From Ignavibacteria bacterium (lineage in GTDB: Bacteria; Bacteroidota; Ignavibacteria; Ignavibacteriales; Ignavibacteriaceae): a DNA stretch of 64,000 bases. The stretch spans positions 1-64,000 of the forward strand of contig JAUXVN010000013.1 of NCBI GenBank assembly GCA_030684555.1, read 5' to 3'. The translations under genes and the position numbers were made by a program. Every line of letters starts with the position of its first letter. Positions within the stretch are counted from its first letter, which is position 1. Below, piece by piece: positions 8,701 to 11,390 of the stretch. The notes beneath the pieces are model-generated. The model was not told where the DNA came from. It searched no databases and saw nothing but the letters and a program-made list of their open reading frames with translations.

Positions 8701-9789
8701 TCAAATATTATAATCAATTTTCGTCAATTTTACTTTTAGCCAATGGAAATCTCCTTTTGGCAATTTCCATGTAACATCCATATCAATTGGGATTTTAATT
8801 CCATTTAGATATTCATTTTTATTTGAAGTTATAACCCATGGATATTTTTCCGCCTTATCATCTGAGCCCATGTATCTCAAAGCTTCAAATCTTTTAAATT
8901 CACCAGATTCATCAAAAAAGAAGGCTGCGTTTACACTCACTCCATTATAAGTCATAGTAACTTCGGCAGAAAGTGAATCAATACTTTTCCAGTTGATGTA
9001 CGAACAAATAGCGGCTGAAGGAAACCAAACAATTTCACCCAAATATCTTTGCATTGTTCCCTCGTTTATTTTCTCATTGGAAACATCAACGACACTAAAT
9101 AATGAGTATAGTTTAATAAGCATTTTACCTTTTCCCGAAACGAACAAATCACGTCCTTTTACAAAAACAAATGGATTCATCTCTAAATCAACAGTCCATA
9201 TAAAAGCAGGTTTTTCTATAGAAAAGTATTGAATTGCCTTTCCATCATACCAATCAACTTGGTCTGATTCCAAACGTATTTTTGCTGATTGCTCTAATCT
9301 TACTGAAAATACTTTTTCCTTACCGACTGCACCTGAATTTATAACCCAATTTCTTACAGGATGTGGTAGTTTATCCAATTCGCTTAACTCAAGTTTTGAA
9401 TTATTTTTTGTTAATTCAGAAAATATGTTCTGCTGTTCAAGCGCTGCATATCGGTTAAAATTCCAAACACCGTATGCAATGACAATCAATAACAGGATTA
9501 TAAAATTTGGTATAGTACCGTATTTTGCATCATTCCATGAAAAAATAATCACGATTTGCGAAAGAATAATTGCGGTTAGTCCAGCCATCCACCAGACATC
9601 TTTTTGAAATATGAAAAGAAATAGAGTTATCAAAAAAAGTATTGTTGAAATTAACCAAACAATTCCAACAGGTTTAGATATTGGCATTGTTAGCTGTTCA
9701 AGTTGAGCAAGTTTATAGGCTTTCAAAAATCCTAATAGATGGATAAATCCATGAATAAAGAGCATAAGAGTGAATACAATACGCAGCAT
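8701..9789 (-). CDS. DUF6544 family membrane protein
   Basis: 362 residues. The first ~130 form four or five hydrophobic segments (residues ~5-20, 40-60, 65-90, 95-115). A soluble domain follows that begins LPHPVRNWVINSGAVGKEKV, the characteristic start of DUF6544. The domain continues with a beta-rich body containing GRDLFVSGKGKMLIKLYSLF, a pattern also common in this family. Function is unknown. The start codon is at 9789, at the edge of the divergent region shared with the ArsR-type regulator, so the regulator could also affect it. No enzyme motif is visible. Confidence 0.75.
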   Translation of the reverse strand: MLRIVFTLMLFIHGFIHLLGFLKAYKLAQLEQLTMPISKPVGIVWLISTILFLITLFLFIFQKDVWWMAGLTAIILSQIVIIFSWNDAKYGTIPNFIILLLIVIAYGVWNFNRYAALEQQNIFSELTKNNSKLELSELDKLPHPVRNWVINSGAVGKEKVFSVRLEQSAKIRLESDQVDWYDGKAIQYFSIEKPAFIWTVDLEMNPFVFVKGRDLFVSGKGKMLIKLYSLFSVVDVSNEKINEGTMQRYLGEIVWFPSAAICSYINWKSIDSLSAEVTMTYNGVSVNAAFFFDESGEFKRFEALRYMGSDDKAEKYPWVITSNKNEYLNGIKIPIDMDVTWKLPKGDFHWLKVKLTKIDYNI

Positions 9790-9868: not shown

Positions 9869-9899
9869 TTGACAAAGCTCTAGAATAAATGTATTTTTG
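9869..9899 (+). promoter_or_regulatory. Promoter of the ArsR/GIY-YIG cassette
   Basis: TTGACA at 9869-9874 and TATTTTTG at 9892-9899. This reads both as a sigma-70-like -35 with 17-base spacing and as the Bacteroidota form TTG-N20-TAnnTTTG. It is 33 bases before the ArsR start codon and directly abuts the palindrome at 9901. Confidence 0.65.
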
Positions 9900-9900
9900 T

Positions 9901-9916
9901 TTCGATACTTATCGAA
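9901..9916. promoter_or_regulatory. Perfect inverted repeat, candidate ArsR operator
   Basis: TTCGATA-CT-TATCGAA: two perfect 7-base arms around 2 bases. It sits immediately downstream of the predicted promoter, over the likely transcription start, and 15 bases before the ArsR-family start codon. This is where an autorepressor would bind. Binding is inferred, not shown. Confidence 0.6.
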
Positions 9917-9931
9917 TTACTTTAGGGAAGC

Positions 9932-10507
9932 ATGGATATACAACAAAGCATCGAAATAATGAAATCACTTGCAGACACAAGCCGTTTGCATGTGATTAAT
10001 TCTTTATTCGAAAAACCACAGTATGTTGAAGAACTATCGAATCGGCTTAACCTTGCTGCTTCTACAGTTTCCTTTCACTTGAAGAAATTAGAAAAAGCCG
10101 GATTAGTATCAAAAATTAAAGAGCAGTATTATTTCGTCTATAAAATAAATGATGAAATTCTAAACCTCACTTTGAGAAAATTCATCTCTTTCGAAAATCT
10201 TGAGAAATTTAATCAGGAGAAACGGATTACAGACTATCGTAATAAGGTTATTAAATCTTTTTTTAAGAAAAATAAATTGATAAAACTCCCGGTTCAGCAC
10301 AAAAAAAGATTGATAATTCTGGATGAAATAATAAACTCATTCGAGATTGGGAAGAAGTATGATGAACCAACATTAGATAAAATTATTAATAAATTTTTTG
10401 ATGATCATTGTACGATCAGGCGATTGTTCATAGAGGAAGGAATGATGAAAAGAGAAAACAGTATTTATGAACGAATTATGAATAAGATAGAGGTTCGAAA
10501 TGATTAA
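9932..10507 (+). CDS. ArsR-family transcriptional regulator with C-terminal DUF2087
   Basis: 191 residues. Residues ~1-85 form an ArsR-type winged helix: IMKSLADTSRLHVINSL, then LAASTVSFHLKKLEKAGLV as the recognition helix. Residues ~110-190 match DUF2087 (KRLIILDEIINSFEIGKKYDEPTLDKIIN...DDHCTIRRLFIEEGMMKRE). No CxC or ELCVCDL metal-binding motif is seen, so a metal sensor role is not supported. AGGGA lies about 6 bases before the ATG. It overlaps the next gene by 8 bases, implying translational coupling. The operator-like palindrome at 9901-9916 suggests autoregulation. The inducing signal is unknown. Confidence 0.85.
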   Translation: MDIQQSIEIMKSLADTSRLHVINSLFEKPQYVEELSNRLNLAASTVSFHLKKLEKAGLVSKIKEQYYFVYKINDEILNLTLRKFISFENLEKFNQEKRITDYRNKVIKSFFKKNKLIKLPVQHKKRLIILDEIINSFEIGKKYDEPTLDKIINKFFDDHCTIRRLFIEEGMMKRENSIYERIMNKIEVRND

Positions 10508-10856
10508 TAAGAAAGAATTAAAGCAAAAATATAAAGAGACTTTACCTCCAATGGGGATTTACCAAATTAGAAACGTTGTTAATGGTAAAATTTTAGTTGG
10601 AAGCAGTAAGAATTTACACGGTAAAGCAAACAGCTTTAAGTTTCAACTCAAACATGGAAGTCATATGAATTCCGATCTCCAGCGTGAATTTATTGAATTT
10701 GGAGAAGACAAATTTTTATTTGAAATCATCGATTACCTTGAACCTAAAGAAGGTACCGATTATGATTATACCGATGATTTATCAACTCTCGAAATGTTGT
10801 GGCTTGAGAAACTGCAACCGTACCTTGAAAAGGGATACAATAAAACAAAAAGGTGA
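10500..10856 (+). CDS. GIY-YIG-like protein coupled to the ArsR/DUF2087 regulator
   Basis: 118 residues. GIY is at 19-21 and the second motif reads LVG (32-34) instead of YIG, followed by SSKNL. The conserved arginine expected about eight residues later aligns with K42, while a glutamate (E98) in a TLEMLWLEKLQPY helix aligns with the conserved Glu. GIY-YIG enzymes cut DNA; here two of the usual catalytic residues (the second Tyr and the Arg) are changed, so nuclease activity is doubtful. Proteins of this kind are known as partners of ArsR/DUF2087 regulators in other bacteria (recalled, not searched). The gene ends one base before the convergent cobO stop. Confidence 0.7.
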   Translation: MINKKELKQKYKETLPPMGIYQIRNVVNGKILVGSSKNLHGKANSFKFQLKHGSHMNSDLQREFIEFGEDKFLFEIIDYLEPKEGTDYDYTDDLSTLEMLWLEKLQPYLEKGYNKTKR

Positions 10857-11390
10857 CTATGATTCAATTCCTTTACGTGAAAGTATACCGTTGGTGTAGT
10901 AGTGCTTAATCTCTTTCATTTCAGTTACAAGATCCGCCGCTGCTATCAACTCATCGGGGCAATAACGACCGGTTAATATTAACTCTACTTGCGCCGGTTT
11001 ATTTTTAATTACATTTAATAAATCAGTTGTAGTTAGTAATCCAAAATAAACCGAAACACAAGCTTCATCAAGAATCACCAGATCATATTCTCCGGAGTTC
11101 ATCACCTGAATAGCTTTATTAATTGCAAATTTTGCTTTTTCAATTTCTTCAGCGGGAGCTGGCTCTTTTTTGTAGACAAAATCATCGCCACAGTATTGTT
11201 CGATCGTAATAAATTCGTTTAACAGTTCTAGGCTATTCAATTCGTTGTAAGGATATTCCTTCATAAATTGAATTATGAAAGATTTTAATCCATAACCGGC
11301 TGCTCTCGCTGCTTGTCCAATTGCTGCAGTTGTTTTTCCTTTGCCATTGCCGGTATAAATTTGTGTGAATCCTCTTTCAAGTCTGGACAT
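10857..11390 (-). CDS. cobO: Cob(I)yrinic acid a,c-diamide adenosyltransferase (CobO/BtuR type)
   Basis: 177 residues, usual CobO/BtuR length. It transfers the adenosyl group of ATP to the cobalt of corrinoids, giving adenosylcobalamin. The P-loop is GNGKGKTTAA (14-23). QFMKEYPYNE, LVILDEACVSVYFGLL and LTGRYCPDELIAAADLVTEM are family signatures. No other cobalamin gene and no cobalamin riboswitch are in the window, so salvage is as likely as synthesis. The stop codon touches that of the GIY-YIG-like gene on the other strand, leaving no room for a terminator. Confidence 0.93.
   Translation of the reverse strand: MSRLERGFTQIYTGNGKGKTTAAIGQAARAAGYGLKSFIIQFMKEYPYNELNSLELLNEFITIEQYCGDDFVYKKEPAPAEEIEKAKFAINKAIQVMNSGEYDLVILDEACVSVYFGLLTTTDLLNVIKNKPAQVELILTGRYCPDELIAAADLVTEMKEIKHYYTNGILSRKGIES

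Follow-up and report, generated by a model that had tools for sequence, protein, structure and literature searches.

Introduction

In setting the locus described here beside its closest known counterparts, we take COG3860 to be the DUF2087 family. A GIY-YIG protein of Symbiobacterium thermophilum (GI 51893458) was described as combining a LuxR-type wHTH, COG3860 and GIY-YIG (Dunin-Horkawicz et al. 2006, PMC1564403). BtmL of Streptomyces scabies, the single relative found to have been studied, is a cobalt-independent positive modulator of btmD in the bottromycin cluster (PMC7113386); nucleic-acid binding by DUF2087 was proposed by Rigden (2011), as that paper cites the work. For the GIY-YIG class, the catalytically relevant residues are Tyr6, Tyr17, Arg27, His31, Glu74/75 and Asn87/90, and an alanine mutant, R27A, has been used as a catalytic mutant of I-BmoI (PMC3161791).

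Layout of the locus

The locus lies in a 64,000-nucleotide stretch of DNA from an Ignavibacteria bacterium (contig JAUXVN010000013.1), the whole of which is called the window below. Its features are as follows.

9869..9897, + strand: sigma-70-like promoter, with -35 TTGACA at 9869-9874, a 17-nt spacer and -10 TATTTT at 9892-9897 (motif score 10/12)
9901..9916, no strand: predicted operator, TTCGATA and TATCGAA around a central CT (single genome site at <=1 mismatch; conserved before linked genes)
9932..10507, + strand: ArsR-DUF2087 regulator gene, 191 aa (ORF list, Pfam; AlphaFold2 pLDDT 92)
9977..10114, + strand: ArsR (HTH_5) domain, aa 16-61, without canonical metal ligands (Pfam; structure match)
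10274..10474, + strand: DUF2087 domain, aa 115-181 (Pfam; predicted secondary structure, winged-helix topology)
10500..10507, + strand: 8-nt gene overlap, ATGATTAA (ORF coordinates)
10500..10856, + strand: GIY-YIG-fold protein gene, 118 aa, with an N-terminal helix (ORF list, Pfam, fold match)
10857..11390, - strand: convergent cobO/btuR gene, outside the module and marking its end (ORF list, Pfam)

The stop codons of the GIY-YIG gene and cobO abut head-on at 10854-10859 with zero spacer, and in the nearest relative, L043, the convergent neighbour is also cobO, in a near-identical arrangement. On the other side a divergent gene (8701-9789, - strand) encodes a DUF6544/DUF6920 protein and starts some 110 nt from the operator. 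The surroundings of the module in the window are ordinary chromosomal genes. No conserved third gene was found across the compared loci, bar a second ArsR-DUF2087 paralogue in Anaerolineales: in six loci of that group (L061, L068, L070, L074, L079 and L097) the order is ArsR-DUF2087, GIY-YIG, second ArsR-DUF2087, with the paralogue directly downstream and lacking a TTCGATA site of its own. One Ignavibacteria locus with a fused pair (L024) has a gene sharing 8 nt with the fused regulator in which a GyrI-like small-molecule-binding domain may be recognised by eye, possibly hinting at a ligand.

An ArsR-type regulator with DUF2087 but no metal site, followed by a GIY-YIG-like gene overlapping it by eight bases, had been proposed by a sequence-only reading of this DNA, and this description is borne out. 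The regulator matches Pfam HTH_5/ArsR (1.5e-14) and DUF2087 (PF09860; 2.9e-20, 72.6 bits against a gathering score of 22.4), as well as NF033788 (58.6 bits against a cut-off of 55). Structure comparison of the ArsR domain retrieves ArsR, SrnR and CzrA at Z values of 13-14.5, in agreement with an ArsR/SmtB winged helix, and the order of an N-terminal helix-turn-helix (HTH) and then a DUF2087 domain scoring above the gathering threshold is that of BtmL-like regulators. No Cys or His occupies the usual ArsR metal positions (alpha3N and alpha5) of the regulator, whose sole Cys sits in DUF2087. Metal sensing by this protein appears unlikely, since the ligand site is missing and its relative BtmL is cobalt-independent (PMC7113386), and a metal-sensor reading was rejected on these grounds. 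The helix-strand-helix-helix-strand-strand order of DUF2087, taken from predicted secondary structure only, corresponds to a winged-helix topology.

A conserved predicted operator

The promoter noticed in the sequence-only reading, TTGACA-17-TATTTT, was recovered, although taken alone it is at chance level, 14 promoter-like sites being seen where 14.2 are expected. TTGA[CA] lies some 30-33 nt 5' of the operator in most linked loci. The adjoining palindrome had been called perfect, which is true of its 7-nt arms but not of its 2-nt centre, CT, which is asymmetric (a 7-2-7 arrangement). Its position, just 3' of the -10 element and 15 nt ahead of the regulator start codon, gives the operon a conserved operator overlapping its own promoter, as in autoregulated operons. 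The copy of TTCGATAnnTATCGAA at 9901-9916 is the sole site in the 4.34-Mb genome, even with one mismatch allowed, so that the predicted control would be limited to its own operon.

The significance of the palindrome comes from its conservation at the equivalent place before linked genes. Exact copies stand in the same place ahead of linked or fused genes at L010/L093, L051, L073, L079 and L092, reaching Chloroflexota (L079) and Spirochaetota (L092); no exact copy was found in the solo GIY-YIG loci. With up to two mismatches allowed and duplicate promoters removed, the operator is present in 18 of 19 promoters of GIY-linked ArsR-DUF2087 genes, drawn from several phyla, and in 7 of 35 promoters of ArsR-DUF2087 genes without GIY-YIG (Fisher p=2e-8), mostly 40-60 nt ahead of the ArsR domain in the linked loci, where TTGAC often begins 32-33 nt before the site. 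Shuffled promoters, used as a control, almost never score as high. Only two of 71 solo GIY-YIG upstream regions contain the site, and both belong to divergent pairs from Myxococcales (L086 and L116), in which one operator lies between the two genes and faces both. That the operator accompanies the GIY-YIG gene even after rearrangement of the operon is the strongest indication that the regulator targets this gene. At L092 and at some loci of Chloroflexota, symmetrical bases continue well past the core (TCTAA...TTAGA).

A wider regulon was considered and rejected: near-matches elsewhere in 12 genomes numbered 18, close to the 11 of a reversed-pattern control, and no other conserved target emerged. 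Four extra sites were inspected: one lies ahead of an ArsR gene outside the module, and at the remaining three no connection with the module could be seen. Separately, tandem ArsR-DUF2087 genes in Chloroflexota (L172, L179, L186 and L189) have this operator too but lack a GIY-YIG gene, and other ArsR-DUF2087 genes without GIY-YIG (L139, L170 and others) often have a related site such as TTAGATAnnTATCTAA, perhaps a second operator specificity.

Pairing and fusion across genomes

Among 198 genomes of the window's phylum, 25 encode the GIY-YIG family, 9 encode DUF2087 and 6 encode both (Fisher p=1.5e-4). Each of the six has the two genes side by side on one strand, fused in one case, and DUF2087 lies directly upstream of the GIY-YIG family in 6 of its 9 copies; this adjacency outweighs co-occurrence as evidence of pairing. 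For other phyla, where the DUF2087 loci were the best-scoring matches and not a random draw, a GIY-YIG gene is next door or fused in 13 of 29 sampled Bacillota loci and in none of 29 from Chloroflexota. The neighbourhood that the sequence-only reading expected of DUF2087 is thus seen in Ignavibacteria and Bacillota but not in the Chloroflexota sample. When GTDB contigs were searched for the GIY-YIG family, 80 loci from many phyla came up, a few of them duplicating a genome already reached, with DUF2087 directly upstream or fused in 29 and divergent in 2. All but one of 26 linked loci have regulator and GIY-YIG genes that overlap by at most 11 nt or stand at most 36 nt apart (gaps of -11 to +36). 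Such recurrence of the pair and its control site across distant bacteria indicates a real conserved unit.

Solo GIY-YIG relatives are nevertheless the majority (73 of 110 loci), and 19 of the 25 GIY-YIG genomes of the window's phylum lack any DUF2087 gene, so the protein can act without an ArsR-DUF2087 regulator. A 69-row tree, on which resolution is weak, has about 15 changes of the linkage label and 6 of the fused label; its well-supported branches force at least two changes for each.

A single open reading frame encodes regulator and GIY-YIG in Ignavibacteria (L024 and L073), Spirochaetota (L092) and Bacillota (L096, L101, L103, L104, L111 and L113). Pfam finds ArsR and DUF2087 in the fusions of the first two groups, and DUF2087 in those of Bacillota, whose head is of another kind than ArsR and, on visual inspection, would combine a CxxC...H...H motif with a LuxR-like HTH after it. 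The heads of the fusions vary, then, and the DUF2087-GIY-YIG part is constant: fusion in three phyla with two different DNA-binding heads suggests a link with DUF2087 itself. No Pfam GIY-YIG match was listed at E<=0.001 for the seven fused proteins scanned, which shows the domain to be highly degenerate. Conserved adjacency, near-overlap, recurrent fusion and an operator found solely at its own promoter all favour the dedicated regulatory module that had been proposed from the DNA of the window.

A GIY-YIG fold with an eroded active site

The 118-residue protein matches Pfam GIY-YIG at 1.4e-4, exactly at the gathering score, and contains no NUMOD or other domain. I-TevI is its only confident PDB sequence match. 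Its AlphaFold2 model (pLDDT 90) superimposes on the I-TevI catalytic domain with a Z score of 15.2 and an rmsd of 1.4 A over 91 residues at 32% identity, the next fold family, UvrC, following far behind (Z 7.9), and the GIY-YIG fold can be assigned to it. With neither NUMOD nor zinc-finger part, and with its gene in a chromosomal operon, it does not have the make-up of a homing endonuclease of the I-TevI type.

At the key I-TevI positions the window protein has Tyr6, Leu17, Lys27, Phe31, His40, Glu75 and Asn90. The second Tyr of the GIY-YIG motif and the catalytic Arg are accordingly replaced, by Leu and Lys, respectively, while the catalytic Glu and Asn are both kept. The same erosion is seen in its relatives: Arg27 is kept in 10 of 109 and Tyr17 in 8 of 109, and not one of 11 fused loci keeps Arg27. 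The earlier reading of the second protein as like a nucleic-acid enzyme is not supported as it stands, both residues being lost in about 90% of members. Glu75 (94/110), Asn90 (90/110) and, mostly, His40 are kept, so that residual or altered catalysis may persist. The family has also a hallmark of its own, a near-invariant Asn at I-TevI position 29 (107/109). We read this pattern as the loss of ordinary nuclease activity with retention of a conserved surface or pocket; disarming a nuclease that is fused to a binder of its own operator would be sensible, and the label 'nuclease' is probably wrong for most of the family members studied here.

Proposed mechanism and alternatives

We give even chances to the locus being a self-contained autoregulatory two-gene module in which a pseudo-nuclease, stripped of catalytic residues, serves as the non-cleaving partner of the regulator. 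Its anatomy, the conservation and single-copy occurrence of its operator, the coupling and fusion of its genes, the residue losses and the predicted fold can be read from sequence, and the following steps would build on them. A dimer of the ArsR-DUF2087 protein would bind the palindrome at its own promoter, directly 3' of the -10 element, and would repress the operon; repression, as opposed to activation, is suggested by the position of the operator. The second gene, translationally coupled to the first, would yield an I-TevI-fold protein without catalytic residues, most likely working without DNA cleavage as the partner of the regulator. This protein probably contacts DUF2087, to which it is fused in several lineages, and may carry or transmit a signal that lifts or tightens repression. 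The co-regulatory role of the pseudo-nuclease is proposed on account of fusion, coupling and residue loss taken together. Autoregulation at a private operator is the best supported part of the mechanism: the anatomy and conservation of the site are observed, and from these we infer repression. More tentatively, a nuclease-fold pseudoenzyme might have taken on the part of a sensory or co-regulatory subunit in a bacterial repressor, its catalytically stripped GIY-YIG domain acting by way of DUF2087, which would be joined to one or another DNA-binding head interchangeably.

The main alternative, which we consider rather unlikely, is that the GIY-YIG protein is an active, non-standard nuclease of DNA or RNA, repressed by ArsR-DUF2087 and released on stress or invasion. 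Tight control of such an enzyme would be sensible, and the frequent retention of Glu75, Asn90 and His40 would favour an altered chemistry; the window protein has all three together with Tyr6, and one relative (L112) retains all five scored residues (Tyr6, Tyr17, Arg27, Glu75 and Asn90). The general loss of Tyr17 and Arg27, the latter complete among fused loci, speaks against it, as do the Phe that 41 of 72 solo copies have in place of Tyr6 and the nature of the defence-system matches, which are only to generic HTH and homing-endonuclease models.

The partnership could also be illusory, the GIY-YIG gene being a mere downstream target whose product never touches the regulator and does some unrelated house-keeping job, as in solo copies, with fusion and adjacency reflecting operon economy. 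The many solo copies, the genomes without DUF2087, the frequent changes of linkage on the tree and the divergent pairs, which share an operator but not a transcript, all suit such a view; we hold it improbable in the light of the fusions in three phyla to two DNA-binding heads, ArsR in Ignavibacteria and Spirochaetota and another in Bacillota.

That the protein is a domesticated homing-endonuclease remnant, a near-neutral selfish relic whose fused forms no longer cut but still bind DNA and repress themselves, would fit with I-TevI being closest in both fold and profile and an autorepressor at an operator (PMC2988022), but is highly improbable where neither a NUMOD domain nor an intron or any homing context is seen, the surroundings are ordinary chromosomal genes, and the conservation of the Asn at position 29 in the family and of the operator across phyla argues for maintained function.

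Two further candidates were rejected. As a defence system the module finds little in PADLOC, where the regulator is matched by generic HTH/CARF regulators and the second protein by a model for homing endonucleases, alongside two weak UzuA matches. A toxin-antitoxin pair is at odds with the common occurrence of solo GIY-YIG copies in the absence of any DUF2087 gene.

Comparison with known systems

Routine annotation gives 'DUF2087 domain-containing protein' and 'GIY-YIG nuclease family protein' for two genes that, on the present evidence, make up a genuine and recurring unit, predicted to control itself and possessing a well-defined operator of 16 bp. This operator allows direct in vitro testing of the system, and the fused proteins offer a one-polypeptide form for structure work.

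Like the Bacillota fusions found here, which are of the same architecture class, the Symbiobacterium protein unites a regulator head, COG3860 and GIY-YIG in one chain; its DNA-binding head differs from that of the window pair. The paper describing it (PMC1564403) gives it a single sentence and includes neither an operator nor an active-site analysis nor a separate-gene version. The DUF2087/GIY-YIG fusion was thus mentioned in 2006, whereas the ArsR-headed version, its operator and the active-site loss appear undescribed, no account of them having been found in the PMC papers searched.

BtmL resembles the window regulator in its ArsR-like N-terminus without metal ligands, its C-terminal DUF2087 and its similar size, but belongs to a bottromycin cluster, and GIY-YIG goes unmentioned in PMC7113386. 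The ArsR/SmtB repressors CzrA and SrnR share with the window regulator the winged-helix DNA-binding domain and a short inverted-repeat operator at their own promoter; the window regulator differs in lacking metal-binding residues and in its additional DUF2087.

The GIY-YIG protein and the I-TevI catalytic domain (1LN0, 1MK0) have a common fold over 91 residues. The former lacks Tyr17, Arg27, NUMOD and the zinc-finger part and has an extra N-terminal helix, and, unlike in I-TevI, DNA binding in the module is supplied by a separate gene. I-TevI represses its own gene (PMC2988022), an instructive parallel to the module rather than a family assignment.
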